Origin: Clostridiaceae bacterium
GTDB lineage: Bacteria; Bacillota; Clostridia; Acetivibrionales; DUMC01
Direction: 5' to 3'
NCBI GenBank assembly: GCA_012840075.1
Contig: DUMC01000049.1
Span: forward strand, 1-33,999
DNA length: 33,999 nucleotides
The translations under genes and the position numbers were made by a program. Under the pieces are notes generated by a model. It had not been told where the DNA came from, did not search any database, and worked only from the letters and a program-made list of their open reading frames with translations. How positions within the stretch are numbered: position 1 is the stretch's first letter; every line of letters begins with the position of its first letter. Of the stretch, positions 882 through 19,148 are shown in pieces.

Positions 882-929
882 AACACATTTCCTTTCTTTT
901 TTTGTTTGTTATTTATTATTAATTTAATT

Positions 930-1330: not shown

Positions 1331-1348
1331 AAAAACATAAGTGATACA

Positions 1349-1369: not shown

Positions 1370-1393
1370 TCGCAACAGGGTACGGTGATACTA

Positions 1394-2665: not shown

Positions 2666-2843
2666 GTAATATGAATTAAGCAATTAAATTTAAAATAAAT
2701 GTAAATTAAAAATAAATGTAAGTCAAAATTAAATACTATCTGTATACAATTTATCCGTTAATAGAAGTACCCGGGTGCTTTTAAAATAAAAAAATAAATA
2801 AATAAAATTTAAAATAATATAAAAGAAATGAGGAGATGATCGA

Positions 2844-3803: not shown

Positions 3804-4970
3804 ATGAAAAAAATATTATCAATAATACTTGTTTTAGTAATAACTGCCGGACTTTTTGCAGGGTGCAATGTCGGCGGAACAAAAGGCAAGACCGAAGAAG
3901 GTGAGAAAGTAATTAAATTTGGACTGTTAGCGCCTTTAACTGGAGTTAATGCAGAGTATGGGAAAGGCTTTGAAGTAGCCACTAAAATGGCAATTGAAGA
4001 GATCAATAAAGCCGGAGGTGTAAATGGTTACAAACTTGAAATTGAAGTGGCAGATTCAAAAGGAGATCAAAAAGAAAGTTCCGACCTTGCAAGGAAATTT
4101 GGAGATGATAAGGAAATTTTGGCTATAATCGGTGACTTCACTTCAGGATGCTGTATGGCAAATGCACCTATCGTAGATGCAGCCGGTATAGTCCAACTTT
4201 CTCCTACAGCTTCAAATCCCGATTATGCAGGTATGAGCCCGTACACATTTTCAATAATGGGACGTCAGGATGCGGAAGCACCTTTCTTTGCAAAGTATAT
4301 CATCCACAAATACCTGGGAATGAAGAATGTGGCGCTGATTTATATAAACAGTGATTGGGGAGTATCTTCTCGTGACAACTTTTTGAAAGGTGCTCAGGAA
4401 GTAGGATTGAATATAGTTGCTGAAGCAAGTTATGTGCAAGATGAGAAGGATTTCTCATCACTGTTGTTAAAATTAAAAGCTGCTAATCCTGAAGCTGTCA
4501 TCATATTCGATCAAGGAGCAGTTCCCCAAATTGTTAACCAGATTGCGGCTCTCGATTGGGATATCCAAATATGTGCACTTGGACCTGGAACTTCTCAACA
4601 GATAATCGAGTTATGCGGTGAGAACGCAGAAGGTCTTATTACTTCAACACCTTTCTTCTTCGATCCTAACAATGAAAAACAAATGGCATGGAAAGAAGAA
4701 TTTGTAAAAAGAGCTGGTTTTGAACCAACAGTGCATCCTGTTATGGCATATGACTGCGTATATCTTCTAAAAGAAGCTATAGAAATGATAGGCGATGGAG
4801 AAATTACAAGGAAAGCTATCCGTGATAACTTGCAAGTAGTAGAATATGACGGACTTGGTGGTCCTATTAAGTTTTCCGACGCTGGAGACGTTACAAGAAA
4901 ATATCTCATATGTGCTGTTGAAAACGGCAAGTTTGTGCTCAAAGCAGGTTATGATTATGCAGATGAGTAA
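3804..4970 (+). CDS. Branched-chain amino acid-type ABC transporter, substrate-binding lipoprotein
   Basis: A 388-residue extracellular binding protein of the LivJ/LivK type. It begins with a lipoprotein signal peptide (MKKILSIILVLVITAG) and lipobox LFAGC, so Cys21 would be lipidated and tether it to the membrane. The mature part starts with KFGLLAPLTGVNAEYGKGF and keeps the family pattern (AIEEINKAGGVNGYKLE, then IGDFTSGCCMANAPI near 112-126). AGGAAAGGGG precedes the ATG. It is followed after 337 bp by the two permeases and two ATPases of the same importer. The ligand may be leucine/isoleucine/valine, but homologues also bind amides, urea or aromatic acids, so it cannot be named. Confidence 0.9.
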   Translation: MKKILSIILVLVITAGLFAGCNVGGTKGKTEEGEKVIKFGLLAPLTGVNAEYGKGFEVATKMAIEEINKAGGVNGYKLEIEVADSKGDQKESSDLARKFGDDKEILAIIGDFTSGCCMANAPIVDAAGIVQLSPTASNPDYAGMSPYTFSIMGRQDAEAPFFAKYIIHKYLGMKNVALIYINSDWGVSSRDNFLKGAQEVGLNIVAEASYVQDEKDFSSLLLKLKAANPEAVIIFDQGAVPQIVNQIAALDWDIQICALGPGTSQQIIELCGENAEGLITSTPFFFDPNNEKQMAWKEEFVKRAGFEPTVHPVMAYDCVYLLKEAIEMIGDGEITRKAIRDNLQVVEYDGLGGPIKFSDAGDVTRKYLICAVENGKFVLKAGYDYADE

Positions 4971-5307
4971 TAAATTTTGCAATATGATGCGATAAATTTT
5001 ATGCCTAAAATTATGCTTAAATTATGAGGCAATAAATTTAACTCTACAACAACAAGTTATACAATAAACTAACAGTAAGTAATAAATAATGGGGATGGGA
5101 CGGGGACGTGTTTTCATGTCCCATCCTGTAAAACAAAGTTGGTATCTGTGACTGCAAACTATGTAACACTATGTAATATACTATGTAACGCTGCTATGTA
5201 CGCTAAGCTATACGCACTATCTATGCAACACCGTTAAGTTCCAAAGCTTATTTGCCCGCCTATAACTGTGTCAGGTGATAGTGCGGTTCGTATAAGGGGG
5301 TAAAAAA
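4971..5307. other. Intergenic region with degenerate direct repeats and one palindromic repeat
   Basis: It lies between the binding-protein gene and the first permease gene. The first part repeats variants of GCAATAAATTTA/GCGATAAATTTT; 5155-5240 repeats CTATGTAAC-like words four or five times. The palindromic GGGGACG element at 5091-5126 lies between. No gene was found. Confidence 0.55.
5091..5126. repeat. GGGGACG-type palindromic repeat, copy 1
   Basis: GGATGGGAC at 5093-5101 pairs perfectly with GTCCCATCC at 5118-5126. An alternative hairpin pairs GGGACGTG at 5103-5110 with CATGTCCC at 5115-5122 around a TTTT loop. GC content is far above the surroundings. Its GGGGACG core is shared with elements near 10.0, 19.9 and 34.0 kb. 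Confidence 0.55.
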
Positions 5308-6186
5308 ATGGAGTATTTGCTTAATCAAATAGTTAACGGCATCAGCCAGGGAGCTATCTATGCCTTGATGGCAATTGGATACTCTGTTGTTGTTGGTGTC
5401 ACAGGGCTAATCACGTTTACTCATGGAGAAGTTATAATGATCGGTGCGTTTGCCTCTTTCTATATATTTCAATATATTGGGAATAATTTGATACTGGGAA
5501 TCATTGCAAGTTTTATTGCATCATGGATACTAGGAATGTTTATATACTATGTGTGCTATGATCGTTTTTTTGAAGCCCCTTCTCATATATCTTTAATATG
5601 TACAATCGGAGCGAGCATGCTGATTAGAAATTTGGCTCAGATATATTTTGGCCCTAACCAAAAGCCCATGTTAAATATTATCGATAACAAAGTTTATAGG
5701 ATAGGCGTTCTTCAAGTATCTCTCATGCAAATTGTAATATTGATAACAGTTGTAGTCTTGGCAAGCATCCTGGCTTTTTTCATTAATAATACAAGATGGG
5801 GTATCATGCTGAGGGCTGTAAGCCAAGATAAAAAAGCTGCTTACCTTATGGGAATAAATGTGAGAAAAACCGCTATGATCGGTAATTGTATTGGATGTGG
5901 TCTGGCAGGTATAGCGGGATTGTTGATATCAATCTATTATCAGACACTTCAGGCTACAATGGGCGGATCTCTGGGAATGAAGGCATTTTCTTCATCAGTG
6001 CTCGGTGGTTTAACTGATACCAGATATTCAGCTTTAGGTGGCTTAGCTATTGGATTAATCGAGAATCTCGGTATTACAATTTCAACTGCAAGTTTTCGTG
6101 ATATATTTGCGTTCGGTTTCCTCATTACTGTTTTAATCATACGGCCTGAGGGATTTGCATCCAGGAAAGGAGCAAAATCGCAATGA
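5308..6186 (+). CDS. livH: Branched-chain amino acid-type ABC transporter permease (LivH type)
   Basis: A 292-residue polytopic membrane protein. The N-terminus (LLNQIVNGISQGAIYALMAIGYSVVVG) and the segments LITFTHGEVIMIGAF and GLAGIAGLLIS are typical of LivH permeases, which have about eight membrane helices. The coupling segment MLRAVSQDKKAAYLMGINV lies near residues 170-188. AAGGGGG sits seven bases before the ATG. Its last four bases overlap the start of the second permease gene (ATGA at 6183), which indicates translational coupling. It pairs with the next permease to form the channel. Confidence 0.92.
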   Translation: MEYLLNQIVNGISQGAIYALMAIGYSVVVGVTGLITFTHGEVIMIGAFASFYIFQYIGNNLILGIIASFIASWILGMFIYYVCYDRFFEAPSHISLICTIGASMLIRNLAQIYFGPNQKPMLNIIDNKVYRIGVLQVSLMQIVILITVVVLASILAFFINNTRWGIMLRAVSQDKKAAYLMGINVRKTAMIGNCIGCGLAGIAGLLISIYYQTLQATMGGSLGMKAFSSSVLGGLTDTRYSALGGLAIGLIENLGITISTASFRDIFAFGFLITVLIIRPEGFASRKGAKSQ

Positions 6187-7193
6187 ATGAAATTATTTTA
6201 AAATTAAAAAGCATTTATGATAAGTATAAAATTATAATCATTTTGGCAGGTTCTATTTTATTATTACTTGTACCTGTTATTTTCCCAAAAAGTTATATTA
6301 TGGGTATAATTTGCAGAATTCTTCTATACATCATTCTGGCAGGCGGTCTTAACGTTATAAACGGGTACAGCAGCCAGTTTTGTATAGGATATGCCGGCTT
6401 TTTTTGCATAGGTGCTTATACTGAAGCTATTTTAGCTTTAAGACTGAAAATTAACTTCTGGCTTCTTCTTCCGATTGCAGGTATAGTTACGGCAATAGCA
6501 GGTTTATTAATATGTTTACCTACATTAAAATTAAAGGGAAAATATCTTGCTTTGGTTACTTTAGGTTTTTCGGAAATCGTGCGTTTGATAGCACTAAACT
6601 GGAGTAGTTTAACCGGAGGACCTATGGGTCTTAAAGGGATTCCCGTTCCCAAAATTTTTGGTATAGAATTCAAGAATTCTCTTTCATATTACTACATTTT
6701 CTTGTTTCTTGTAGCTATATTCCTGTTTGTTACAAGAAGAGTGATTAATTCAAGAATAGGCCGTGCATGGATGTCAATTCGCGAAGACGAACAGGCAGCC
6801 AGGTCTTTAGGAGTTGACACTTCTATGTATAAAGCCCTAAATTTTATGTACGGTGCTTTTTGGGCCGGAATTGCAGGAGCTGCCTATGCACCTTATACAA
6901 GATATATTGACTCAACTTTCTTTACATTGGATGAGGGCTTTAACATACTTTCCATGGCTATTATCGGAGGTATGGGCACACTGATTGGCCCGGTAGCCGG
7001 TTCGATAGTTGTAAATCTTCTTACGGAATTATTAAGACCTATTAGTGAATATAGATTGGTAGCTTATGCGATTTTAATTATTGCCATGATGTGGCTGAGA
7101 CCTCAGGGTCTATTTGGTGCATCTAAGAGCATATTGGCCGGAAAGGAAATAGTTAAAAAAGCCCGTAAAGCAGAAAAGGAGGCGGCAGCATGA
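6183..7193 (+). CDS. livM: Branched-chain amino acid-type ABC transporter permease (LivM type)
   Basis: A 336-residue integral membrane protein. After a hydrophobic N-terminal helix it shows LAGGLNVINGYSSQFCIGYAGFFCIGAYT, GLLICLPTLKLKGKYLALVTLGFSEIVR and the coupling segment SIREDEQAARSLGVDTSMYK, all standard for LivM. The tail is rich in Lys, Ala and Glu. The start overlaps livH by four bases and the stop overlaps livG by four bases, so the three are one transcript. It is the second half of the importer channel. Confidence 0.92.
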   Translation: MNEIILKLKSIYDKYKIIIILAGSILLLLVPVIFPKSYIMGIICRILLYIILAGGLNVINGYSSQFCIGYAGFFCIGAYTEAILALRLKINFWLLLPIAGIVTAIAGLLICLPTLKLKGKYLALVTLGFSEIVRLIALNWSSLTGGPMGLKGIPVPKIFGIEFKNSLSYYYIFLFLVAIFLFVTRRVINSRIGRAWMSIREDEQAARSLGVDTSMYKALNFMYGAFWAGIAGAAYAPYTRYIDSTFFTLDEGFNILSMAIIGGMGTLIGPVAGSIVVNLLTELLRPISEYRLVAYAILIIAMMWLRPQGLFGASKSILAGKEIVKKARKAEKEAAA

Positions 7194-7975
7194 AAGTACT
7201 CCTTGAAGCTAAAAATGTTTCAAAGCATTTCGGCGGATTGAAAGCAGTAGATAATGTAGACATGGTTATATATGAAGGTGATATATTTGGGATAATAGGT
7301 CCAAACGGAGCGGGTAAGACAACATTTTTTAATCTGTGTTCTGGAGTATTTCCTGTTACCGGCGGAGAAATATATTTTAATGGAGAAAACATAACTAATC
7401 TGCGCCCCGATATCATAGCAAAAAAGGGAATGGCAAGGACCTTTCAGAATATAAAACTTTTTAACTATATGTCTGTTCTGGAGAATATTAAGATAGGATT
7501 TCACATACATTCAAGAACCAGGATGTGGGATGCTATTCTTCATACTTCCGTATATAAAAGGGATGAAAAACTGGCAGAAGAAAAAGGAATGGAGATTATT
7601 GAAAGAGTAGGTTTAAAAGATTACAAGGATATATTAGCAGGAAATCTTCCTTACGGAATGCAGCGTATGGTAGAAATAGCCAGAGCTTTAGCTTTGGATC
7701 CTAAGCTCTTACTCCTTGATGAACCTGCGGCAGGAATGAATCCGAATGAGACCATGGCACTTATGGAGTTTATAAAAAAGCTGAATCACGAGGGTTACAC
7801 TATTGCTGTTATAGAACATGATATGAAGTTTGTTATGAATACTTGTAACAGAATAATGGTGTTAAATTTCGGTAAGAAAATTTGTGAAGGAGATCCTGAA
7901 TACGTAAGGTCGAATAAGGAAGTAAACGAAGCTTATTTCGGAAAAGGAATTGTAGTGCAGGGAGGGACTATGTAG
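7190..7975 (+). CDS. livG: Branched-chain amino acid-type ABC transporter ATPase (LivG type)
   Basis: A 261-residue cytoplasmic nucleotide-binding subunit. Walker A is GPNGAGKTT at 37-45, the Q-loop is in ARTFQNIKLF, the signature is LPYGMQR at 153-159 (the form usual for LivG), and Walker B is LLLLDEP at 173-179, followed by an H-loop in VIEHDMKF. AAAGGAGGCGGC precedes the ATG, which overlaps the livM stop. Together with LivF it powers uptake through LivHM. Confidence 0.93.
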   Translation: MKVLLEAKNVSKHFGGLKAVDNVDMVIYEGDIFGIIGPNGAGKTTFFNLCSGVFPVTGGEIYFNGENITNLRPDIIAKKGMARTFQNIKLFNYMSVLENIKIGFHIHSRTRMWDAILHTSVYKRDEKLAEEKGMEIIERVGLKDYKDILAGNLPYGMQRMVEIARALALDPKLLLLDEPAAGMNPNETMALMEFIKKLNHEGYTIAVIEHDMKFVMNTCNRIMVLNFGKKICEGDPEYVRSNKEVNEAYFGKGIVVQGGTM

Positions 7976-7976
7976 C

Positions 7977-8687
7977 ATGCTGAAAATACAGAACCTTTCA
8001 GTTAATTACGGGTATATTGCAGCGGTTAAAAATATAAGCTTGGAAGTAAATGAAGGGGAAATCGTTACACTGATAGGTGGAAACGGTGCAGGCAAAACAA
8101 CAACATTAATGGCTATATCAGGTTTAGTTCCTAAAGCCTCCGGCACTATAACGTTTAAGGGAGTAAATATTACAAAAATGTCTCCTGATAAGATCGTGAA
8201 GATGGGAATATGTCATGTGCCTGAAGGCAGAAGAATCTTTCCTAGCCTCACGGTATATGAAAATCTAATGGCAGGTACAATTGGGAATCCATCCTTGAAA
8301 AAACCACAAATAAAACAATTACTTGAAAAAAACTATGAGCTTTTCCCAAGACTTAGAGAACGAATGAAACAAAGCGGAGGAAGTCTTTCAGGAGGAGAAC
8401 AGCAAATGCTTGCAATAGCCAGGGGACTTATGATGGATCCTGACATCATTATGCTGGATGAGCCTTCCTTGGGTTTGGCACCAATAATAGTTGAAGAAAT
8501 ATTTGACCTTATACTTAAAATTCGAAATGCCGGAAAGACGGTTCTGTTGATTGAACAAAATGCATCTATGGCACTTTCCATTGCAGACAGAGGATATGTT
8601 ATAGAAACAGGAAATGTTGTCTTGGAAGGTAAAGGAAGAGAACTATTGGCAAACCCTGATGTAAGAAAAGCTTATCTTGGTGGCTAA
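7977..8687 (+). CDS. livF: Branched-chain amino acid-type ABC transporter ATPase (LivF type)
   Basis: A 236-residue ATPase and the last gene of the importer. Walker A is GGNGAGKTT at 34-42, the signature is LSGGEQQ at 137-143, and Walker B with catalytic Glu is IIMLDEPSLGLAP around 158-169. CHVPEGRRIFPSLTVYENL is the family-specific Q-loop region. The ATG follows the livG stop by one base, with GGAGGGA upstream. No convincing terminator follows; the next 200 bp contain the predicted dhaK promoter. Confidence 0.93.
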   Translation: MLKIQNLSVNYGYIAAVKNISLEVNEGEIVTLIGGNGAGKTTTLMAISGLVPKASGTITFKGVNITKMSPDKIVKMGICHVPEGRRIFPSLTVYENLMAGTIGNPSLKKPQIKQLLEKNYELFPRLRERMKQSGGSLSGGEQQMLAIARGLMMDPDIIMLDEPSLGLAPIIVEEIFDLILKIRNAGKTVLLIEQNASMALSIADRGYVIETGNVVLEGKGRELLANPDVRKAYLGG

Positions 8688-8743
8688 GTATAAGATCAAG
8701 CATAAATTGCAAGATCAGGCTTAAATTATCTGTTTTCTCTAGC

Positions 8744-8773
8744 TTGACTAGATATGACGGCTGGCTTTATCAT
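8744..8773 (+). promoter_or_regulatory. Candidate promoter for dhaK
   Basis: TTGACT at 8744-8749 and TATCAT at 8768-8773 are 18 bp apart; each differs by one base from the sigma-A consensus. It lies about 140 bp before the dhaK start, in the gap after livF. Confidence 0.45.
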
Positions 8774-8914
8774 GCTTGAAGAATTCAATTGCCTTTTTGT
8801 GGGTATAAAGCGTTTAAGTTTGTATAAGCTTTTTCATAGTGGTGGATAATCAAAATAAGCTTTTTACAAAGAATAACTAAAATTAATCAGATGATAGAAG
8901 GAGGAGTTTCTAAA

Positions 8915-9934
8915 ATGAAAAAGATTATTAATAAACCCGAAAACTTTGTAGATGAAGTTATGGAAGGTATAATACTTGCCTATGGAGACAAAGTAAAATT
9001 TTTGAATGGTGACAAAAGGATACTCTTATCAAATTATCCTGCAAAGGAAGGCAAAGTCGGCATTGTAACAGGAGGCGGAAGCGGGCACCTGCCGGTATTC
9101 CTCGGTTATGTAGGACAAGGTATGCTAGATGGTTGTGCAATTGGTAATGTATTTGCTTCTCCGTCTTCTCAAAAAATGGCTGATATGATTAGAGCATGTG
9201 ACCGTGGCAGCGGTGTATTATGTTTGTATGGGAATTACGGCGGAGATAATATGAATTTTGATATGGCTTGCGAAATGGTGGAATTTGACGGTATTGAAAC
9301 CAGAACGGTCCGTGTTAAAGACGATGTGGCTTCCAGTCCTAAGGAGACAGCGGATAAACGCAGAGGCGTGGCCGGAATGGTATATGCATTTAAAATAGCA
9401 GGAGCGGCTGCTGAAAGAATGATGACTTTGGATGAAGTAGCTGCAATTGCTCAAAAAACAGTGGACAATACAAGATCTATGGGAGTTGCTTTGTCAGCCT
9501 GCATAGTACCTGAAGTTGGAAAACCGACTTTTTCAATAAATGAAGACGAGATAGAAATCGGAATGGGCATCCATGGAGAAAAAGGAATCGAAGTTCGCAA
9601 AATGATGACTGCGGATGAAATTGCCCAAACTCTTCTTGACAGGATACTGGAGGACATGCCTTTGAATAGCGGTGACGAAGTATCTGTTATGGTAAACGGC
9701 TTGGGTGGCACGCCATTAGAAGAGCTATTAATAGTTTACAGGAAGGTCCATATGATGCTTGCTGAAAAAGGTATTTCAGTATACATGCCTCACATTGGTG
9801 AATTTGCAACTTCAATGGAGATGGCAGGTTTATCTTTGACCATATTAAAACTTGATGAACAATTAAAAGAGTTGTTGACAAGCCCTGCTAATACTCCTTT
9901 TTACACCAATGCAAATAAAATTCCTTTAAAATAA
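8915..9934 (+). CDS. dhaK: Dihydroxyacetone kinase-type subunit DhaK
   Basis: A 339-residue protein. GGGSGHLP at 53-60 contains the substrate-site His58, GNYGGDNMNF at 106-115 contains Asp111, and GMGIHGEKG contains His220. His220 matches the histidine that forms the covalent hemiaminal with dihydroxyacetone in known DhaK. Its partner DhaL is encoded 263 bp downstream. ATG 8915 is chosen because GAAGGAGGAG ends seven bases before it; ATG 8891 lies before that site. GHLP, IGNVFASPS and GNYGGD differ from the E. coli forms GHEP, PGEIFTSP and KNYTGD, so the sugar substrate may not be dihydroxyacetone. Confidence 0.85.
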   Translation: MKKIINKPENFVDEVMEGIILAYGDKVKFLNGDKRILLSNYPAKEGKVGIVTGGGSGHLPVFLGYVGQGMLDGCAIGNVFASPSSQKMADMIRACDRGSGVLCLYGNYGGDNMNFDMACEMVEFDGIETRTVRVKDDVASSPKETADKRRGVAGMVYAFKIAGAAAERMMTLDEVAAIAQKTVDNTRSMGVALSACIVPEVGKPTFSINEDEIEIGMGIHGEKGIEVRKMMTADEIAQTLLDRILEDMPLNSGDEVSVMVNGLGGTPLEELLIVYRKVHMMLAEKGISVYMPHIGEFATSMEMAGLSLTILKLDEQLKELLTSPANTPFYTNANKIPLK

Positions 9935-10197
9935 GAATGAAGAGCTTAAATAATAGCTGAGATAAAAATAGGGATGATGAAGGGAATACGGGGCACGGCT
10001 CTTTTTCTCTTGAAATGTAAAATGAAGAAAATAAACCGCAAATCGTCTCCGTATTGCTCATAACCGTCCCCGTGTTCCTTTTGGAAATGTCAAGGCATTT
10101 TATAATCTTATAACAGAAGCTGTAAAAGTGTTAAGGCATACTGAAAATAAAGTAGAACAGTAGAACATTATGAAAATTAAGTAGGAGGGAATGAAAT
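9935..10197. other. dhaK-dhaL spacer containing a palindromic repeat
   Basis: The two kinase subunit genes are usually close together, but here 263 bp separate them. The GGGGACG-type repeat occupies 9983-10078. The rest is AT-rich with no gene. The repeat probably entered an originally tighter operon; this is inference. Confidence 0.5.
9983..10078. repeat. GGGGACG-type palindromic repeat, copy 2
   Basis: GGAATACGGGGCACGG at 9983-9998 faces CCGTCCCCGTGTTCC at 10064-10078, an imperfect inverted repeat of a GGAACACGGGGACGG unit. A third, decayed unit, CGTCTCCGTATTGC, starts at 10044. The layout of units in opposite orientation resembles a REP/BIME pair. Confidence 0.6.
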
Positions 10198-10842
10198 ATG
10201 AGAGCATGTGATGTAAAAGAAATCTTTTCATATATAAGCGAAATAATGGCAAACAATAAAGATTATTTGATAGAACTGGATCAGCAAAACGGAGACGGGG
10301 ATTTGGGCATATCTATGAGTGCCGGCTTCAGTGAAGTTGCATCATATCTTAAAAATACTGATGAAAAGGATCTTGGCAAGTTATTTATGTCCTGCAGTTC
10401 AAAATTTAATGAAGCAGCTTCTTCTACACTTGGTACTATAATATCCCTTGGAATGATGGGAATGGCCAGAACTTTGAAGGGAAAAGAGGAGGCTAACATT
10501 TCAGAGGTTGTTGATGCATTGGAACAAGGTATACAAAGAATTATGGATAAAGCAAAATCAAAACCGGGAGAAAAAACTATTCTTGATGCTTTATATCCGG
10601 CTGTGGAAGCATTAAAAGCCAACAGTTCCCGTGGTGTAAAAGAAGCAACCAAAGCAGCGTATGAAGCTGCAGCTGCAGGTTCTGAGAATACAAGGAACAT
10701 GAAACCGGTTCATGGAAGAGCTGCTTATTATGGAGATAAAAGCATAGGTTTGTTGGATGGCGGCTCAGTTGCAGGAAAGTTTATTTTTGAAGGAATATAT
10801 AGATATTATTCCGAAAATTATAAGGACGATAGTGATAAGTAA
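10198..10842 (+). CDS. dhaL: Dihydroxyacetone kinase-type subunit DhaL
   Basis: A 214-residue ADP-binding kinase subunit. The Mg-nucleotide motif DQQNGDGDLG gives Asp28, Asp33 and Asp35, matching the three metal aspartates of DhaL. The helix region SSTLGTIISLGMMGMA and the C-terminal GRAAYYGDKSIGLLDGGSVAG are also typical. TAGGAGGG lies eight bases before the ATG. No DhaM phosphotransferase subunit is in the window, so whether the pair uses PEP through a remote DhaM or ATP is open. The two-subunit arrangement excludes the FakA-type fusion. Confidence 0.87.
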   Translation: MRACDVKEIFSYISEIMANNKDYLIELDQQNGDGDLGISMSAGFSEVASYLKNTDEKDLGKLFMSCSSKFNEAASSTLGTIISLGMMGMARTLKGKEEANISEVVDALEQGIQRIMDKAKSKPGEKTILDALYPAVEALKANSSRGVKEATKAAYEAAAAGSENTRNMKPVHGRAAYYGDKSIGLLDGGSVAGKFIFEGIYRYYSENYKDDSDK

Positions 10843-11280
10843 TTATATTGATAAGTGAATTTATTTAGTTAAAAGTGATAAATAAATTATTTAGTTAAAC
10901 TCACCGAAATTCAAGTAATAATGAATATGAGGAGTGTCTCCATATTTTATCGATAATTACGTTCATTGTTTAAGGAGTTTACAAGAGTTTAACATGTGTA
11001 TTTTAACATAAATTTTTTGCAACAAGATTTTAGCGCAATTTTTAAAATAAAATATCATTACAATAGCAGAACGCCTTTTTAAAAATAGAATATCTTAAAC
11101 AATAGAAATATAAAAGAAATATATAGAAATTTTAAAGAAATGTAAACAAGGAAATTATCTATAGCAACATTGATTTATAATCAGCAAACAAATAATCGGC
11201 AAACAAGTTGAATGTTAGAATTATATGAGGTAAAATCTATAGCTGGTTTGAGTTTAGCGTTTTTAGAAAGGAGACACTTT
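10843..11280. other. AT-rich gap before the regulator gene
   Basis: About 440 bp with no gene seen. The first 60 bp repeat GATAAGT and TTATTTAGTTAAA words (degenerate direct duplications). A 23-codon in-frame extension of the regulator starting at 11212 is not used here because it has no ribosome binding site. Confidence 0.45.
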
Positions 11281-12972
11281 ATGGCTACTGCTACGATTTT
11301 AGGTAGTGTTGTAGATCTGGTGAAACAAATGGGGGAAAAGCTGTCAAAAATCCTGGATACTGATGTGTTAATTGTGGATAATAATTTCAATATAATTAGT
11401 GAAACGAACAGGTATTTTGTGCAGCATTCAAAAGTAATCATGGATTCAATGATAGGACAGGTCATTGTAAACCAGGAAAGCCTTGTAGTTGCTGATAAAA
11501 ATGAATTCTTTATTTGTCAGAAGTGTGTGGATTTCAATGAATGTCAAGTTACGGGATTTATTGGTGTGCCAATTTTTTACGTGGACAGGGTCATAGGGGC
11601 TGTTGCTCTCATTTTTCCAAGGCATAGGGCAAAGGATCTTCTGCAACATTCAGATGTCATAATTTCTTTTATTAAATATATTATATTAGAAGATTTAGTT
11701 GAAAAGATTCCCCAAAAGAATGAACTGGTTGAATTAGTGCAAATTATTAACGAAAGAGAGCACATGCTGGATAATTTGTCTGATGCTGTCGTGCTTACTG
11801 ATGAATTTGGCGTAATAAAATATTACAATAAACAATTTGAAAATATGGTTGGATTGGAAAAAAAGTGCATTAACGAACGCATACAAAAAGTTATACCTCA
11901 CAATATAGTATTGGATTATTTTGAATCACGGCATGAATATGATAATCAAAAAGTACTGATAGAATGGGGAGAACAGACTTTTTACGGCTTTGTGTCTTGT
12001 AGAGCAATACAACTTGATGAAAAAAGACGCGGTGTTTTGTTTATTTTTAAGACGGTAGTCGATGTAATTCAGAATGCAAGAGCTGTACAAAAAGGTTCAA
12101 AAGTAACACTTCAGTGGTTGAAGGATTGGCTGTTTACGGATGATATATTGGATAAGGCTAAAGCACTTGCAGTTACAGATGATATAATACTTATAAAAGG
12201 GAAAAGTGCAAATTTAAATGAAATACTTGCAAAGGGAATTTGTAATTTCTCAAACCGTAATCTTCAAGGATTGACAATTATAAAATGCGACAGTATTTAT
12301 AAAGAGCATTTGGAACATTATGTTTTTGGGGAATTTGGAGAAATTCAAAAATCAGATAAAGGGACTATTTTTATCAGCAATATAGAAACTATGCCCTTAT
12401 ATTTGCAAAAATATTTACTGGATTTTATTAAGTATGGTCAAATTAGACATGAAAATATGAAACCGATCAAAAGTGATGTAAGATTTATATTTTCTACCAC
12501 GGTAGATCTTATGGAAATGGTTCGGAAGGGATTGTTCCTGGAAGAGCTATATTATCGAATTACTGAAAATGTAATTGAAATACCCCCTTTACAGCATAAT
12601 AAGGATGTACTGTATAGTATGATAACCGCTGGTTTTGATTTTTATAAGAAGAAATATGAGAAGCATAATGTATCTTTATCAAAAGAAGCTGTAGATTATC
12701 TATGTTCTTTAGATTGGCAAAATGATACTTCAAAGATTAATATGCTTTTAGAACAGATTGTGGCACGTTATGATGGTACAGTGGGAGTTGACGATATAAC
12801 TGCCTTGAATTTATTGGAAGATGAAAAGGAAGTTATGATGTCAATCGAAGAAATTGAAAAGCAAAAAATTAAGAAACTGCTTGAAGAAGGATATAAAAAG
12901 ACTGAAATATCAAATATGCTTGGTATCAGCCGGGCAACTTTGTATAGAAAGATTGAGGAATATGGTTTGTAA
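11281..12972 (+). CDS. DhaR-like PAS/AAA+/Fis regulator with a degenerate AAA+ domain
   Basis: A 563-residue protein. Residues 1-140 form a GAF-like sensor with a CxxC-x5-C cluster (Cys79, 82, 88); about 163-267 is a PAS domain (MLDNLSDAVVLTDEFGVIKYYN); about 282-440 follows the sigma-54 activator AAA+ domain; 522-563 is a Fis-type helix-turn-helix (KTEISNMLGISRATLYRKI). The AAA+ part is degenerate: the Walker A position reads IKGKSANLNE, Walker B reads TIFISN without acidic residues, and the GAFTGA loop is deleted, although EELYYRI survives. It probably binds DNA without ATP hydrolysis or sigma-54 contact. Its position after dhaKL suggests it controls them, as E. coli DhaR does. ATG 11281 has AAAGGAG seven bases upstream. 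Confidence 0.82.
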   Translation: MATATILGSVVDLVKQMGEKLSKILDTDVLIVDNNFNIISETNRYFVQHSKVIMDSMIGQVIVNQESLVVADKNEFFICQKCVDFNECQVTGFIGVPIFYVDRVIGAVALIFPRHRAKDLLQHSDVIISFIKYIILEDLVEKIPQKNELVELVQIINEREHMLDNLSDAVVLTDEFGVIKYYNKQFENMVGLEKKCINERIQKVIPHNIVLDYFESRHEYDNQKVLIEWGEQTFYGFVSCRAIQLDEKRRGVLFIFKTVVDVIQNARAVQKGSKVTLQWLKDWLFTDDILDKAKALAVTDDIILIKGKSANLNEILAKGICNFSNRNLQGLTIIKCDSIYKEHLEHYVFGEFGEIQKSDKGTIFISNIETMPLYLQKYLLDFIKYGQIRHENMKPIKSDVRFIFSTTVDLMEMVRKGLFLEELYYRITENVIEIPPLQHNKDVLYSMITAGFDFYKKKYEKHNVSLSKEAVDYLCSLDWQNDTSKINMLLEQIVARYDGTVGVDDITALNLLEDEKEVMMSIEEIEKQKIKKLLEEGYKKTEISNMLGISRATLYRKIEEYGL

Positions 12973-13057
12973 TAAGTTTGATATAATTTGTTTATTCTGC
13001 TATTAAATAGGGTAATGAAATAAAAAGAATAGCATTACTTTTAGGCGAGGTATATTA

Positions 13058-13849
13058 TTGTATATGAATATTGAACTAATCAGAAAAAAAACCGGTTTTA
13101 TATGTGATATGGATGGTGTCCTGTATCATGGCAATTATTTGCTCAAGGGAGCGTCGGAATTTGTAAACTGGTTGAAGTCCGAAAATAAAAAATTTCTGTT
13201 TCTGACAAATAGCAGTGAACGTTCACCAAAAGAACTGGCGCAAAAGCTTGCCAGACTTGGATTGGAAGTAGATGAAAGCCATTTTTATACCAGCGCTCTG
13301 GCTACAGCAAGTTTCCTTGCAAGTCAATGCCCGGGAGGAAGTGCTTTCGTTATAGGTGAAGCTGGACTTATTAATGCCTTGTACGATGCAGGATTTTCCA
13401 TGAATGATGTGAATCCTGATTACGTTGTAGTCGGAGAAACGAGGTCATATAGTTATGAAAGAATAGAACGTGCGGTTTTTCTTGTTCAGAGGGGAGCAAA
13501 ACTGATTGGAACAAACCCTGACCTTACAGGACCCAGTGAAAAAGGAATAGTGCCTGCAACCAGGGCTTTAATAGCCCCTATAGAATTGGCTACAGGCAAA
13601 AAAGCTTATTTTGTGGGAAAGCCAAATCCCTTGATGATGAGAGTAGGGCTAAAGCGTTTAGGATGTAGAAGCGAAGATACTGTAATTATCGGAGATAGAA
13701 TGGATACCGATATCATTGCAGGTATTGAATCTGAAATTGATACGGTACTTGTATTAAGTGGAGTAACTAATATGGATAATATAAATGATTTTCCTTACAG
13801 ACCCAAATACATCCTGAACGATGTAGGAGATATAGTAAAAGGGTTATAG
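13058..13849 (+). CDS. HAD-IIA family sugar phosphatase (NagD type)
   Basis: A 263-residue cytoplasmic phosphatase. Motif I is DMDGVLYHG with nucleophile Asp17 and acid Asp19; motif II is FLFLTNSS near residue 50; VGKPNP carries the motif III lysine; motif IV is IIGDRMDTDI. The cap between motifs II and III is the C2 type. The family removes phosphate from small sugar or glycol phosphates. TTG 13058 is preferred because GGCGAGG ends seven bases before it; ATG 13064 is the alternative, 13 bases away. It lies downstream of dhaKL and the regulator and may act on a product of that pathway, but this is only context. Confidence 0.85.
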   Translation: MYMNIELIRKKTGFICDMDGVLYHGNYLLKGASEFVNWLKSENKKFLFLTNSSERSPKELAQKLARLGLEVDESHFYTSALATASFLASQCPGGSAFVIGEAGLINALYDAGFSMNDVNPDYVVVGETRSYSYERIERAVFLVQRGAKLIGTNPDLTGPSEKGIVPATRALIAPIELATGKKAYFVGKPNPLMMRVGLKRLGCRSEDTVIIGDRMDTDIIAGIESEIDTVLVLSGVTNMDNINDFPYRPKYILNDVGDIVKGL

Positions 13850-14023
13850 TAAGGTCAAGTTGGCAGCCATGGGTATATTTATTTAACTTCCACAGGTATA
13901 ATTTTTATTCTTATATACGAAATAAATAAGACAGGACAATATATGGTATATGATGACACAAGGTTAGATAAAGACAGGATTAAATGATGGTTCAGCACCC
14001 AATGGTTATCGAATAGTAATTAA

Positions 14024-14063
14024 AAAATCCACATAGTATTTTTTCAATAACTATGTGGATTTT
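14024..14063. terminator. Bidirectional terminator between convergent genes
   Basis: AAAATCCACATAGT at 14024-14037 pairs perfectly over 14 bp with ACTATGTGGATTTT at 14050-14063. T-rich sequence follows on both strands. It serves the HAD gene on the plus strand and the PIG-L gene on the minus strand. Confidence 0.8.
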
Positions 14064-14119
14064 GTTTACCCTTTCTAACTTATAATCGTATCATGATTTG
14101 TTTTATCAATACATTGGTT

Positions 14120-14938
14120 TTAAAAAGGAAAATACCCGGATAATTGCTCTCTGGTAGGTTGCGCTCCATACTCACTTATTTCAAAAGCTTCTATATATTT
14201 AACCTTGCTACCTTTTTCTTCACCGTAACGTTCTATCAATTTGTGGCGATATTTGTCGGCTAAAAGGCTGTAATAAGCACCTCGCTTTTCGGACAGCCAT
14301 TGTAACCTTTTGCTTTTGTCAGCAGGAACTTCATTTTCGTAATTATCAACCCACGGCAACCACTCATAAAATTGAGATTTATGGCAATCCAGTATTTTCA
14401 TTTTTGTTTCAAATACATCATCAATATCCACAACAATAGTTGGCTCAAACGGAACAGGTTTATTAAAATCATCTGCTACATACATAATAACAGGACAATA
14501 TCTTAATGGCGGCACATCTGGACAAACATGAGGTACCATCAATAGGTATGAAGCATCTTGTAATAAAATGGACGTGCGACGATGATCAGTATGATAATCA
14601 TTTAATCTTGGTGCAAATATGATATCCGGCTGAAATTTCCTAATTATACGGATTAGTTTATCGCGGTTGGTTATATCGGCCTCCAAGTAACCATCATTAT
14701 TATCCATTATTTCATATTCAAAACCTGCTACTTCACAAGCGGCTTTAACCTCCAAAGCTCTCACTTTGGCAATTTCTTCTTTGCTTAGCTTATGATGACC
14801 TGCATTTCCGTTAGTTGTATAAACGTACTTAACAACATGTCCCAACTTTCTATATTTAACACATGTACCTCCCGTGGTTAGCTCACAGTCATCAGGATGA
14901 GCACCCAATACCATAATTCTTAATTTATCCTTTTGCAT
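14120..14938 (-). CDS. PIG-L/LmbE family deacetylase
   Basis: A 272-residue protein with the zinc motif AHPDD at 13-17 near the N-terminus and a second zinc-ligand segment DYHTDH at about 114-119. Such enzymes remove an N-acetyl group from GlcNAc-linked molecules, for example in bacillithiol, mycothiol or glycan metabolism. CGGAGG lies eight bases before the ATG on the minus strand. It is a single gene bounded by the bidirectional terminator downstream. The substrate cannot be assigned; no bshA or bshC homologue is nearby. Confidence 0.85.
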   Translation of the reverse strand: MQKDKLRIMVLGAHPDDCELTTGGTCVKYRKLGHVVKYVYTTNGNAGHHKLSKEEIAKVRALEVKAACEVAGFEYEIMDNNDGYLEADITNRDKLIRIIRKFQPDIIFAPRLNDYHTDHRRTSILLQDASYLLMVPHVCPDVPPLRYCPVIMYVADDFNKPVPFEPTIVVDIDDVFETKMKILDCHKSQFYEWLPWVDNYENEVPADKSKRLQWLSEKRGAYYSLLADKYRHKLIERYGEEKGSKVKYIEAFEISEYGAQPTREQLSGYFPF

Positions 14939-15215
14939 AATATTTGCCTCCGATTAAATGTATTATAATGTATTATTTTTAAGTATTGTTTTAGCAAGCG
15001 CATTGCTGTTATTACAATTTCAATATAGTTTAAATCTTATATTTTTGGAAGAGTAAATTTAAAACAATTTTAATTTAATATATTTATTTAATTTTATATA
15101 ATTATTATAATTATTAGCATAAATATATCTTGGGTATATAATATAATTGAAAAAGTTTAATGCTGAAAATCAAAAGTAACTTTTAAAACTTATTCTGATA
15201 TAAGAGGTGTATCAA

Positions 15216-15839
15216 GTGCGTGAAGTGAAAGTGAAATCTGTTATACCTGTCTACCTGGTTGGAGTGGCATGGCTTTTATGCGCAATAATGCTTCCGATGT
15301 ATAGGTGGTATGATTGGTCGATAGCTTCGGTAGCTTCTTTTTTGGTTTATAAAATAGGTAATAAAATATTCAAACCAAAAACGGTTTTGGTTGAAAAAGA
15401 ACCGGAACCTATTAATACGGGCAATAAAGAATTGGATGAAGTTTTAACTGCCGGTACTGCATATATGGCGGAGCTTAATACTTTAAACTTGAATATCCCT
15501 AATGAGCAGGTTAATAAGAAAATAGATGAAATGATGAGTATTGCAAAGGAAATTTTCGATTTCATAACTAAAAATCCTACAGAAGTACGACAGATAAGAA
15601 AATTTATGAATTATTACCTGCCTACGACAATAAATTTGCTCAAAGAGTATGATGAATTCAGAAAACAGGAAACAAAAAGTGAAAGTATTATAGAAACAAT
15701 GAAGAAAATCGAGAGAGTTTTGGGCACCATAGTTGTTGCTTTTAAAAAGACATTGGATGATTTATACAAAAATAAGGCTTTGAATATTTCTGTTGATATT
15801 GAAGTATTGGAAAGAATAATTAAAGAAGAAAACCTGTAA
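15216..15839 (+). CDS. xpaC: XpaC-like protein (5-bromo-4-chloroindolyl phosphate hydrolysis family)
   Basis: A 207-residue membrane-anchored protein. Two hydrophobic segments (VIPVYLVGVAWLLCAIML and a second near residues 33-47) are followed by a charged helical region with LDEVLTAGTAYMAELN and a tetratricopeptide-like helical tail (VRQIRKFMNYYLPTTINLLKEYDEF) typical of the XpaC family. In Bacillus xpaC neighbours a TelA-family gene, as here. GTG 15216 is chosen because AGAGGTG lies six bases upstream; GTG 15207 would overlap it. The function is unknown despite the family name; an envelope or stress role is inferred from the cassette. Confidence 0.75.
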   Translation: MREVKVKSVIPVYLVGVAWLLCAIMLPMYRWYDWSIASVASFLVYKIGNKIFKPKTVLVEKEPEPINTGNKELDEVLTAGTAYMAELNTLNLNIPNEQVNKKIDEMMSIAKEIFDFITKNPTEVRQIRKFMNYYLPTTINLLKEYDEFRKQETKSESIIETMKKIERVLGTIVVAFKKTLDDLYKNKALNISVDIEVLERIIKEENL

Positions 15840-16132
15840 AAAGGCGTTATAATTTGTTATAATTTGATTAGGATTTATAATATGTATCAAGGTATTGAAA
15901 TTGTATTTGTGCTGAAGCTACAAATTACACTGAAGCTACAACTTGCATTAAAGCCGTGATTTATCCGTGATTTATGCTGAAACTATGTATGTAAGAACCA
16001 TGATATGTAAAAAACTATGATTTGCGATGATTTATATTGAATTTTCATTAAAATAGATGGATAACTTATAATCTAAAAAGATAACCTATAATTGGCAAAG
16101 GTAATATATAATAGGTAAAGGTGGAATGATTG
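15840..16132. other. Intergenic region of degenerate short repeats
   Basis: Words such as CTGAAGCTACAA, CGTGATTTAT, ATGATTTGCGATGATTTATA and ATAACCTATAAT occur two or three times each with small changes. No gene, hairpin terminator or clear promoter was seen. The xpaC and telA genes may still be co-transcribed. Confidence 0.45.
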
Positions 16133-17302
16133 ATGGATAAAAACAATAATGAACGAATAGTGCCTGAGTTGATTTTAAATTCTCAACCTGCAAGCTTTAC
16201 TCTGGAGAATAACGTGGTAAATGTACTAAAGGCAGAACCTGTTTCAGAAACTGCAAGTATTGAAAACATAGGATTTTCTGAACAGGAGAAGGCAGTGGTA
16301 AAAGAGTTTGCTAAAAAGATAGATATTACTGATTCAACTCAAATATTGCAGTATGGCAGTCCAGCTCAAAAGAAAATAGCGGATTTTTCCGAAAGTGCTC
16401 TTTCTAATGTTCGTACAAAGGACTTGGATGAAGTAGGAAGGATTATCAGCGATCTTGTAGTAAAACTTAAAGGATTTGCTATAGAAGATGAGCCCAAGGG
16501 ATTTATGGGAATTTTTAAGAGAACCGGAAAGCAGATAAGCCGTCTCAAGGCTCAGTATAATACTATAGAAAAAAACATTGACGAAATATGTGAATCACTT
16601 GAGAAACATAAAATAACTTTATTGAAAGATATTACCATGCTGGATAAGATGTACGAAATGAATCTTGCCTACTATAAGGAACTGAGTATGTATATTATGG
16701 CAGGACGTGAAAAGCTTAAAGAGGTTCTAAGTAAGGAACTTCCGGCATTGCAGGAGAAAGCAAGGAAAAGCGGAAGACCTGAAGATGCTCAAGCTGCGAA
16801 CTATTTGGCTGATATGTGCAATAGATTTGAAAAAAGACTTCACGACTTGGAACTTACTCGTACCATATGTGTACAGATGGGTCCTCAGATACGTATGCTT
16901 CAAAGTACAAACAGTATTATGTTGGAAAAAATCCAGACTTCTCTTGTCAATACGATTCCATTATGGAAGAATCAAATGGTGCTTGCACTGGGAATTGTCC
17001 ATTCTAAAAGAGCTATGGAGGCTCAGCGTCAGGTTACTGATATAACGAATAATTTATTGCGTAAGAACGCTGAGATGCTTAAGACCCATACAATTGATGT
17101 TGCAAGAGAAGCCGAACGTGGAATAGTGGATATAGAAACTTTGAAGCAAACGAACCAGTCTTTAATAGAAACTCTTGATGAAGTTTTGAGCATTCAGCAT
17201 GAAGGTAGAATGAAGCGCCTTGAAGCTGAAAAAGAATTGATTCGCATAGAAAATGAATTGAAGAACAAGCTTTTGTCAATCAGGGATTCAGCAAATGGCT
17301 GA
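16133..17302 (+). CDS. telA: TelA family protein (toxic anion resistance)
   Basis: A soluble, strongly helical protein of 389 residues. The region from about 120 to 370 matches the TelA family: GFMGIFKRTGKQISRLKAQY, DITMLDKMYEMNLAYYKELSMYIMAG, MLQSTNSIMLEKIQTSLVNTIPLWKNQMVLALG and the closing repeats with a coiled-coil tail. The family was named from tellurite resistance; its biochemical role is unresolved and it is often linked to envelope stress. AAAGGTGG lies eight bases before ATG 16133. xpaC lies upstream and the LemA-like gene follows after about 90 bp. Confidence 0.88.
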   Translation: MDKNNNERIVPELILNSQPASFTLENNVVNVLKAEPVSETASIENIGFSEQEKAVVKEFAKKIDITDSTQILQYGSPAQKKIADFSESALSNVRTKDLDEVGRIISDLVVKLKGFAIEDEPKGFMGIFKRTGKQISRLKAQYNTIEKNIDEICESLEKHKITLLKDITMLDKMYEMNLAYYKELSMYIMAGREKLKEVLSKELPALQEKARKSGRPEDAQAANYLADMCNRFEKRLHDLELTRTICVQMGPQIRMLQSTNSIMLEKIQTSLVNTIPLWKNQMVLALGIVHSKRAMEAQRQVTDITNNLLRKNAEMLKTHTIDVAREAERGIVDIETLKQTNQSLIETLDEVLSIQHEGRMKRLEAEKELIRIENELKNKLLSIRDSANG

Positions 17303-17390
17303 CATCATTTAATATGTAAATAATTGATCTTACTAACTTGGAAATAAGTGAATAATTCAAGCCTGACCCTATAAAGAAAGGATGAGGGTT

Positions 17391-17930
17391 TTGCGAAAAA
17401 GGGCAACTGCATGGACAATTACTATATTAATTATTATATTATCTACTATAATTAGCGGGGGTTCGTCGTTAAATAAGTTAAGACAGGAAACAATAGATAT
17501 TTTCTATTTGGGAGAAAAGATGAATGGTGTGGGTATACAGCATGATCTAAATATGATAATGACTAATTCCGTCAATCTTACCGTAGTTGCCGGAAGATAT
17601 CTTGGTCAAGGTCATGAACTTATACAAAAAGTCCTTAATGCTCGGGATGCCTTAAATAAAGCTGAAACTCCGGGAGAAAAATATGATGCGGCCCAGGAGC
17701 TGTTGAGTTCTGTTACAGAATTATATACTTATCTTGGCAATATGGAACTGAAGGAGAAAGATCAGAACTTCCGTGAGAGTTTGTATGCTGAAATAAATTC
17801 CCATAATATTAAAATATCACGCAGTACTTATAATCAATATGCCAGGAAGTTTAACAATTTATTGAATACTTTTCCTGCAAATATCTTGAGTAAAGTTGCT
17901 TTTATTCGTCCTGTGGAGTTATATGAATGA
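17391..17930 (+). CDS. LemA-like membrane protein
   Basis: A 179-residue protein with one N-terminal membrane helix (TITILIIILSTIISGG) and a mostly helical outer domain. The final part, NQYARKFNNLLNTFPANILSKVAFIRPVELYE, matches the end of LemA-family proteins; the first half is only weakly similar. TTG 17391 is preferred: the ATG at 17382 directly touches the GAAAGG ribosome binding site. The next gene encodes a TPM-domain protein, a common partner of LemA genes. The exact function is unknown. Confidence 0.65.
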   Translation: MRKRATAWTITILIIILSTIISGGSSLNKLRQETIDIFYLGEKMNGVGIQHDLNMIMTNSVNLTVVAGRYLGQGHELIQKVLNARDALNKAETPGEKYDAAQELLSSVTELYTYLGNMELKEKDQNFRESLYAEINSHNIKISRSTYNQYARKFNNLLNTFPANILSKVAFIRPVELYE

Positions 17931-18026
17931 GTAGTATAAATAATATAAATGAGCAATATAAATGAGTTATATAGTTATAATAATAGGAGGCAGTAAACTT
18001 TTTACAACGGGAGAGCTTATGAAAAG

Positions 18027-19148
18027 ATGAAAAGGAAAGAATTAAAAATTAGGACAATGAAATGCAGAAAAATAAAAGTCAAAAAACTAAAAATTGAAAA
18101 AATTATTATGTTTTCACTGCTCCTTTTGATGCTGTCCCCTCTGGTTGCTTACGGAAAAGTTAAATTTCCCGAACCTACTTCAAAATTTTATGTTAATGAT
18201 TATGCAGGCGTAATTGATGAAGAAGTTGAAGATCTAATTGTTGTCAACGGACGTGCTTTAGATGCGAAAACAGGGGCGCAGATAGTGTTGGTTACTGTTA
18301 ATTTTACGGACGGTATCCCGATCTATGATTATGCTGCAGATTTATTTAATGAATGGAAGTTAGGCTCAGCAGAAAAAAACAATGGTTTGCTTATTTTAAT
18401 GTCTATTGGTGATGAGGATTATTGGGCAGTTCAAGGTGCAGGACTTGAAACTACCTTAACTGATGGAGAAATTTCACAAATGCTATATGATTATCTGGAG
18501 CCGGATTTTGCTGCTGAAAATTACAGCGAAGGAGCAGCCAAAATTTATGAAGCTTTTATAAAAAGACTGGGCGGAAACTGGACCAATGAACTGGGCTCAA
18601 AGAATAATGCTGACAGAAGTTATAATAGCAACAATTCACGTAACGGTTTTAATGCCAATGGTTATAGCAATAACGGATGGTATTATAGTTTTGATTTTCG
18701 ATTTATACCGAGTGTAATATTTAGCATACCGTATTTTTTTTCAAGGTTTTTTAGGTTTCTGTTTTTCCCGGTATTATTTCTTTTTATAATATTTTCACAT
18801 CGGAGGAGATATTATAGGAGATTTGGAGTTCCTTTTAACCCTTTTAGGCGGTTGTGGAGAAGACGCTATGGACCGGGCAGCTTCTGGGGGCATTTTGGTC
18901 CGCCGCCATGGGGCGGTTTTTGGTTCGGAGGACGAAACAGTAATCCGTGGCACAAAAAAGATCCGGGAGCAGGACCAGGGGCAGGACCCGGACCAAGGAA
19001 GGATTTCGGTCCAGGACCGTTTTCATCCGGTGGTAACCCATTTGGACGTAGTGGTGGAAGCAAACCTTTCGGTGGAGGAAATTCTTTCGGAGGCCGAAGC
19101 GGCGGAGGAGGCTTTACCAGGGGCGGAGGTGCCGGAAGACGCAAATAA
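18027..19148 (+). CDS. TPM domain protein with glycine-rich C-terminal tail (YgcG type)
   Basis: A 373-residue secreted or membrane protein. A basic N-terminus leads into a signal or anchor helix (IIMFSLLLLMLSPLVAYG). The TPM domain follows (about 47-190: FYVNDYAGVIDEEVEDLIV, GAQIVLVTV, NNGLLILMSI, DEDYWAVQGAGLE). Next come a polar Asn/Ser linker, a second hydrophobic segment at about 228-255 (FFSRFFRFLFFPVLFLFIIF), an arginine-rich stretch, and a Gly/Pro/Phe-rich tail ending SGGGGFTRGGGAGRRK. Such tails are typical of this family. It is the last gene of the XpaC-TelA-LemA-TPM cassette and is followed by a terminator. The ribosome binding site is weak (GGGAGAG, 11 bases upstream). Confidence 0.8.
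   Translation: MKRKELKIRTMKCRKIKVKKLKIEKIIMFSLLLLMLSPLVAYGKVKFPEPTSKFYVNDYAGVIDEEVEDLIVVNGRALDAKTGAQIVLVTVNFTDGIPIYDYAADLFNEWKLGSAEKNNGLLILMSIGDEDYWAVQGAGLETTLTDGEISQMLYDYLEPDFAAENYSEGAAKIYEAFIKRLGGNWTNELGSKNNADRSYNSNNSRNGFNANGYSNNGWYYSFDFRFIPSVIFSIPYFFSRFFRFLFFPVLFLFIIFSHRRRYYRRFGVPFNPFRRLWRRRYGPGSFWGHFGPPPWGGFWFGGRNSNPWHKKDPGAGPGAGPGPRKDFGPGPFSSGGNPFGRSGGSKPFGGGNSFGGRSGGGGFTRGGGAGRRK

Follow-up and report, generated by a model that had tools for sequence, protein, structure and literature searches.

The gene at 11281–12972 encodes a 563-residue relative of the enhancer-binding proteins (EBPs) that has lost the motifs for ATP hydrolysis and sigma-54 contact and has kept an intact Fis-type helix-turn-helix (HTH). 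We consider it fairly probable that this protein is an ATP-independent regulator of its own gene cluster, acting with sigma-A through a palindrome, and within this reading repression is held to be roughly twice as probable as activation. The protein would probably serve as a repressor of cysteine-related uptake and catabolism. Positions refer to the window, the whole stretch of 33,999 nucleotides of a Clostridiaceae draft genome that was analysed.

Domain Architecture and Loss of Motifs

The open frame containing the regulator spans 11212–12972 (586 codons), and the ATG at 11281 is preferred as its start because a good ribosome-binding site, AAAGGAG, precedes it. The gene and its domains are as follows.

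11281–12972, + strand, regulator gene, 563 aa, GAF-PAS-AAA+(dead)-Fis HTH (frame, Pfam, alignments)
11335–11625, + strand, GAF domain (Pfam PF01590)
11515–11544, + strand, C-x2-C-x5-C motif in the GAF domain, common to 28 of 29 class-wide homologue loci
11752–11916, + strand, PAS domain (Pfam PAS_8/PAS)
12142–12570, + strand, degenerate AAA+ (Sigma54_activat) domain, the sensor II loss lying further downstream (Pfam, alignments, structure model)
12844–12963, + strand, Fis-type HTH, intact (Pfam HTH_8, conserved columns)

A preliminary description of this gene held that the AAA+ fold is traceable with Walker A, the Walker B acids and GAFTGA gone, and alignment to 28 relatives, Pfam and Foldseek all confirm this. 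Specifically, Pfam recognizes Sigma54_activat at 75.9 bits (E 3.8e-21) and HTH_8 at 34 bits. An AlphaFold2 model built from a 29-row alignment reaches block-mean pLDDT values of 86–98 over residues 291–510, which Foldseek matches to the AAA+ domains of PspF/NtrC1 with a target TM of ~0.82. The GAF/PAS half of the model is of low confidence and uninformative, and a PDB search with that half alone gave matches no better than E 0.54.

As a motif reference we took 28 intact relatives (L044–L071), each of which carries G[AE]SGTGKE, G[AST]F[ST]GA, a Walker B DE and FRxDL. Compared with these proteins, Walker A of the regulator has changed from GESGTGKE to GKSANLNE, GAFTGA has been deleted together with its loop (LFGYEEGAFTGAVRGGKPGKFE to VF...GEFGEIQ), Walker B has gone from FLDE to FISN with loss of its acids, and sensor II from WPGNVREL to WQNDTSKI. 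The first arginine finger reads FLEEL in place of FRxDL, and the second arginine is retained. The changes in the first finger and sensor II extend the losses listed previously. The HTH, earlier called perfect, is indeed intact, with 10 of 11 family-conserved columns retained, and the GAF domain keeps 8 of 12. Outside the motifs, 23 of 59 conserved AAA+ columns are retained, versus 34 in an orthologue from genome G013 (see below). With no GAFTGA, Walker A/B, first finger or sensor II, the regulator lacks the hallmarks of a functional sigma-54 EBP; it has an EBP fold with GAFTGA gone and an intact HTH, as in regulators of the TyrR/DhaR/VpsR kind.

A profile search with PF00158 identified the regulator as the only EBP-like protein seen in the source genome; the five other matches all lack anything like GAFTGA, and four are AAA+ proteins of other kinds with normal Walker motifs. 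Among named genomes, the regulator retrieved a single locus (L008), an intact-motif EBP with 25% identity over the C-terminal half, and viral contigs searched with a two-row regulator alignment gave no confirmed match. A literature search found no paper on exactly this protein, which does not prove its absence from the literature.

Membership of a Cysteine-Containing GAF Family

Class-wide, 100 of 391 genomes were matched by the search, and the family figures given here rest on the best 29 loci, one per genome, so that further degenerate members are possible among the lower-scoring homologues. The C-x2-C-x5-C motif lies in the N-terminal part of 28 of these 29 loci, as well as in the regulator and its relatives from G013 and G027, and is absent from 26 other rows of the same motif table (one of which, L034, is a non-EBP). 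We refer to the motif-bearing proteins as the Cys-GAF family. A fourth cysteine occupies one column in 14 of the 28 relatives (L044–L071) and in the G027 protein and is missing from the regulator and G013. It is possible that this cysteine cluster (11515–11544 in the window) acts as a metal or Fe-S sensor.

In phylogenetic terms, the regulator and its G013 orthologue are sisters (100/100) that fall inside the Cys-GAF set (88/95), nearest to L044 (91/96); these last two values fall short of the tree tool's own threshold, the outgroup comprised four rows, and the long branch of the regulator is possibly misplaced. The GAFTGA-less protein of G027 lies elsewhere in the set (100/99), which, provided the tree is correct, implies two or more losses of the GAFTGA loop. 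In this G027 protein (L040), GAFTGA was lost separately, Walker A and B are intact and the second arginine finger is changed; its neighbours are, by eye, amidohydrolase- and peptidase-like genes, not dhaKL.

Taken together, the GAF motif, the place in the tree, the palindrome and the cyuA-like neighbour identify the regulator, at the level of sequence, as a member of the Cys-GAF lineage, the palindrome (13 of 28) and the cyuA-like neighbour (12 of 28) being frequent, non-universal traits of that lineage. In these 12 loci the neighbouring gene is homologous to the window's cyuA-like gene (31–39% identity), once with a short frame between. The family probably also includes CdsR of C. difficile, which we compared by description only.

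An Orthologue with Overlapping Losses and Signs of Selection

G013 belongs to a different family within the order, and its orthologue shares 33% identity with the regulator over the full length. GAFTGA is gone from this orthologue, as are Walker B and the first of the arginine fingers, with Walker A and sensor II kept. The orthologue is present in 2 of the 58 genomes of the order, the source genome counted, and the next best match is that of G027 (E 9.6e-72); so narrow a distribution counts against the preferred reading of a cluster regulator. Orthologues with the same losses beside dhaKL had been suggested as a check, and a single one was found: its losses overlap with those of the regulator, but it retains Walker A.

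With respect to selection, codon-position identities between the regulator and G013 are 0.49, 0.63 and 0.32 at positions 1, 2 and 3, which argues that the protein has been under selection since the common ancestor. The AAA+ part gives 0.50, 0.61 and 0.35 and is conserved no worse than the GAF or PAS domains. These values bear on the alternative, to our minds very unlikely, that the gene is a decaying relic that has drifted since sigma-54 was lost and remains open by lag only. That alternative draws on the long branch (2.28 changes per column in the tree), on the second-position GC of 0.24 in the regulator as compared with 0.37–0.39 in five neighbours, and on the 23 AAA+ columns retained where G013 has 34. 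It is opposed by the 563 open codons, by the greater identity to the orthologue at second (63%) than at third (32%) positions, by the columns retained in the HTH and GAF domains, and by retention of a presumed operator. The original argument that a frame of more than 560 codons reflects selected function and not decay thus stands in so far as such a frame has a chance of ~1.6e-20 at the regulator's base composition and second positions are the best conserved; it is weakened in that the long branch and the AAA+ columns may be compatible with recent decay along the regulator's own branch.

The Gene Cluster

The regulator stands at the end of a cluster that begins with a cyuA-like gene and continues through an ATC_hydrolase gene, an ABC substrate-binding protein gene, livHMGF-like genes, dhaK and dhaL.

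1385–2665, + strand, cyuA/cdsB-like (SDH_alpha) gene, first of the cluster (Pfam, cysteine spacing)
2844–3332, + strand, ATC_hydrolase-family gene (Pfam)
3804–4970, + strand, ABC substrate-binding protein gene (Pfam)
5308–8687, + strand, livHMGF-like ABC permease and ATPase genes (two permeases by NCBIfam; two ATPases by their own sequence and G013 homology)
8915–9934, + strand, dhaK (Pfam, NCBIfam)
10198–10842, + strand, dhaL (Pfam, NCBIfam)
13058–13849, + strand, HAD-IIA phosphatase gene, 3′ of the regulator (Pfam, NCBIfam)

The same cluster genes are found in G013, where the ATC_hydrolase gene has relocated directly 5′ of dhaK and the regulator is immediately 3′ of dhaL; the 19.5 kb that surround the G013 regulator hold no homologue of the HAD-IIA phosphatase. 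The cyuA-like product has Cys26, Cys316, Cys356 and Cys363 with 40- and 7-residue spacing, as in the Fe-S ligands reported for CdsB of M. jannaschii (PMC5767170). The gene is over no NCBIfam cut-off, and from its sequence we assign it, in both the window and G013, to the CyuA/CdsB (cysteine desulfidase) type. Whether the window cluster forms one transcript is uncertain because of its large intergenic gaps. Two of these (9935–10197 and 4971–5307) are long and include G/C-rich, repeat-like stretches; the latter, between the substrate-binding protein gene and livH, holds an inverted repeat with 10-base arms and a repeat-like look (GGATGGGAC...). An Rfam scan of the window gave nothing at gathering thresholds.

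Clusters of an ABC transporter with dhaKL recur (1385–10842 here; L039, L105 and L106), and in G362 and G081 such clusters occur without a regulator of this kind. The ATC_hydrolase gene was seen in the clusters of the window, G013 and G362, and the cyuA-like gene in those of the window and G013, where a DhaK-type kinase gene accompanies one of the cysteine desulfidase type. Elsewhere in the window, four consecutive genes (15207–19145) encode a protein with a Halogen_Hydrol domain, TelA, LemA and a protein with a TPM domain.

The position of dhaK and dhaL directly upstream of the regulator in both clusters invites a DhaR-type reading, in which a sigma-A-partnered regulator would be controlled by binding DhaK and DhaL and would activate dha genes. 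The DhaR model is indeed the regulator's best NCBIfam match, and E. coli DhaR (L109) shows similar motif decay, with no GAFTGA, a Walker B of LEKI and both arginine fingers lost, Walker A being kept. This match, however, scores 138 bits against a cut-off of 551 and aligns only from model position 187, and the regulator falls among the Cys-GAF proteins, the cysteine motif of which is missing from DhaR. No DhaM-type EIIA was found in the source genome, no regulator homologue occurs at any of 29 other dhaL loci (1.5-kb flanks), and no palindrome at ≤1 mismatch lies upstream of dhaK. We judge this reading quite unlikely. Membership of DhaR was rejected on NCBIfam score, tree and site location, and neither kinship with DhaR nor the initial suggestion of direct DhaK/DhaL sensing is supported; the regulator may still sense DhaK/DhaL, since dhaKL lies directly 5′ of it in both clusters.

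Presumed Operators and Promoters

In terms of DNA targets, the region upstream of the cyuA-like gene contains two palindromes of the form TGTATCA-N3-TGATACA, together with half-sites and candidate promoters.

1067–1094, + strand, P1, candidate sigma-A promoter, CTGTGA-N16-TATAAT, 41 bp before O1 (prediction)
1136–1152, no strand, O1, presumed operator, TGTATCAAAATGATACA, perfect palindrome (palindrome search)
1238–1244, + strand, half-site TGTATCA (half-site search)
1302–1330, + strand, P2, candidate sigma-A promoter, TTGCAT-N17-TAAAAT with TGn, 20 bp before O2 (prediction)
1342–1348, + strand, half-site TGATACA adjoining O2 (half-site search)
1351–1367, no strand, O2, presumed operator, TGAATCATTATGATACA, 1 mismatch (palindrome search)

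At ≤1 mismatch, O1 and O2 are the only such palindromes in the 3.78 Mb draft genome, a reversed-palindrome control gave 0 sites there, and when the region 5′ of the cyuA-like gene was shuffled 2000 times, two or more sites never arose. The G013 locus has one palindrome (TGTATCAAAATGACACA) in the 19.5 kb searched, directly 5′ of its cyuA-like gene; shuffles of the G013 region contained a palindrome in 0 of 2000 cases at ≤1 mismatch and 8 of 2000 at ≤2. Neither the surroundings of the regulator gene nor the G027 locus yielded a palindrome. The spacing of 215 bp between O1 and O2 is a non-integral number of turns and counts against regulation through these sites as we propose it. A further palindrome at 928–954 (TTATTGCATA-N7-TATGCAATAA, 10+10) was set aside, as it is nearer the divergent gene and has no like among the G013 upstream inverted repeats; that minus-strand gene, at the window start, encodes by eye a DegT-type aminotransferase.

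Among the intact relatives, a relaxed palindrome core occurs within 600 bp 3′ of the regulator at 13 of 28 loci (1.61 expected), and a -24/-12 element within the same distance at 24 of 28 (0.93 expected); all 13 palindrome-bearing loci also carry the -24/-12 element. The closest intact relative (L044/L113) has neither, which likewise counts against the preferred reading. In the window, G013 and G027, no -24/-12 element was seen close to either the regulator or the cyuA-like gene, and at ≤2 mismatches there is no match upstream of the first gene of the window.

That the regulator binds the palindromes is an inference, and they could instead be bound by another, unrelated local regulator, the target of the present protein lying elsewhere, as the 15 of 28 intact relatives without a palindrome core within 600 bp downstream might suggest. 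The palindrome nevertheless accompanies the regulator family class-wide above shuffle expectation and, even at ≤2 mismatches, is absent from the four dhaL loci checked that lack the regulator, three of them with dhaK. We hold this alternative to be very unlikely.

With respect to the sign of regulation, O1 and O2 lie 20–41 bp downstream of -10-like elements, and this placement underlies the repressor reading. Sites just 3′ of a promoter usually block it. In G013, a sigma-A match of 10/12 (TTGACG-N17-TATAGT) ends 27 bp 5′ of the palindrome. The matches in the window are weaker, and the region holds others of equal score; over positions 1–14200, which are AT-rich, 71 sigma-A matches were found versus 57.3 expected (sd 7.9). 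The promoter-based step to repression is thus the weakest of the argument, as sigma-A matches are common in AT-rich DNA. Activation at sigma-A promoters, with O1 used at a distance, would differ from the best reading in sign only, its likelihood overlapping with that of the latter. Here O1 would lie ~185–200 bp before a start driven by P2, and sigma-70 activators lacking GAFTGA are described (PMC10274813). By contrast, O2 and the single G013 palindrome fall 3′ of the predicted promoters, and we regard activation as rather unlikely, if still a serious contender.

Sigma-54 in the Genomes

In the source genome, a draft that is 97% complete, no sigma-54 core-binding or AID domain (PF04963, PF00309) was found, and its sole weak match to the sigma-54 DNA-binding domain (PF04552) is a LacI-family protein. 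G013 (83% complete) has only a 223-residue RpoN-like fragment and G027 (98% complete) only a 389-residue RpoN-like form, both without an RpoN box, so that no sigma-54 with that box was found in any of the three genomes whose family member lacks GAFTGA. A reading of the G013 fragment as a broken copy of an ordinary rpoN was rejected, as it stops where the short boxless RpoN-like protein of the order stops. G002, from the family of the source genome, has nine matches to the regulator, and the six that were read all keep GAFTGA-like motifs; a sigma-54 core or AID domain was not found in this genome either, and for this reason an rpoN missing from a draft genome is no proof of absence.

Across the order, 9 of 12 RpoN-like genes, a hand-picked and non-random sample, are of the short form (369–393 aa), ending before the RpoN box (L243, L245, L246, L247, L249, L251, L252, L253 and L254). 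Short and full forms occur together in G018, and seven genomes (G004, G007, G008, G010, G012, G026 and G030) have the short form with no second match and no EBP match to the regulator.

Proposed Mechanism and Origin

Our preferred model is that a former sigma-54 activator of the Cys-GAF family, having lost ATP hydrolysis and sigma-54 contact, would now be a ligand-controlled DNA-binding protein at the sigma-A promoters of its cluster. The protein itself would bind the palindromes through its HTH, the AAA+ domain presumably serving as an inert oligomerisation scaffold, and would repress the cluster; cysteine or a related thiol/thiazoline, sensed by the GAF/PAS domains, would then lift repression. 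A cysteine-related ligand is probable given the desulfidase-type and ATC_hydrolase-family genes of the cluster and the response of cdsB to cysteine via CdsR. The earlier suggestion of a non-ATPase, sigma-A-linked regulator is supported by the failure to find sigma-54 core or AID domains, the overlapping losses in G013, the missing -24/-12 element and the similar decay of E. coli DhaR.

We tentatively propose, as a scheme that has a reasonable though not a better-than-even prospect, that a sigma-54 activator driven by ATP was turned in stages into a sigma-A repressor that needs none, and that the old enhancer site became a blocking operator. The first stage may be represented by G027, which stands for a distinct line within the family and in which GAFTGA and the second arginine finger are lost and Walker A/B are intact; the next by G013, where the losses comprise GAFTGA, Walker B and the first of the two arginine fingers; and the last by the window, where Walker A and sensor II would have been lost as well. 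The upstream palindrome would have been kept and the -24/-12 promoter swapped for sigma-A elements.

Relation to Known Regulators and Implications

The sensor domain of E. coli TyrR is unlike that of the regulator. As an EBP descendant without GAFTGA that acts at sigma-70 promoters and represses aroF-tyrA, TyrR is otherwise similar (PMC6375630, PMC3162934). E. coli DhaR resembles the regulator in its sigma-70 partner (PMC3162934) and its dha gene neighbour and differs in its retained Walker A, the lack of a Cys-GAF motif, a position divergent from dhaKLM and the presence of dhaM. VpsR of Vibrio cholerae and the NtrC proteins of Rhodobacter capsulatus and Caulobacter are likewise described as GAFTGA-less EBPs at sigma-70 promoters, VpsR reportedly needing no ATP; unlike the regulator, all three have an aspartyl phosphorylation site, and both NtrCs need the nucleotide site (PMC10274813). 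The EBPs of Fusobacterium nucleatum and Jannaschia sp. come from genomes without sigma-54 and have a proposed sigma-70 partner, but are described as having one GAFTGA substitution and an ATPase site that is not wholly lost (PMC3162934). The EBP descendants without sigma-54 contact named in these accounts are TyrR, DhaR, HupR, VpsR and the two EBPs in sigma-54-less genomes (PMC3162934, PMC10274813).

A system similar in setting is CdsR of C. difficile, a PAS-AAA-Fis protein of 591 aa coded beside cdsB, with inverted repeats as presumed upstream sites and cysteine-dependent induction reported for cdsB/CdsR (PMC5767170). CdsR differs in having kept GAFTGA and a sigma-54 partner, and the description we compared names no GAF domain (PMC5767170). 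What is new here is the Cys-GAF family, together with how far the loss has gone, the existence of intermediate relatives and a palindrome kept without the -24/-12 promoter.

Sigma-54-independent EBPs are thus known, and their origin upon a lineage's loss of sigma-54 has mostly been inferred. In the present case, related genomes allow the protein motifs to be traced jointly with the operator, the promoter and the sigma factor, so that the sequence of events becomes open to test. The regulator also provides a natural AAA+ domain without a nucleotide site, in which any role left to the domain is open to measurement. Overall, these observations point to a sigma-A version of the CdsR-like cysteine response.
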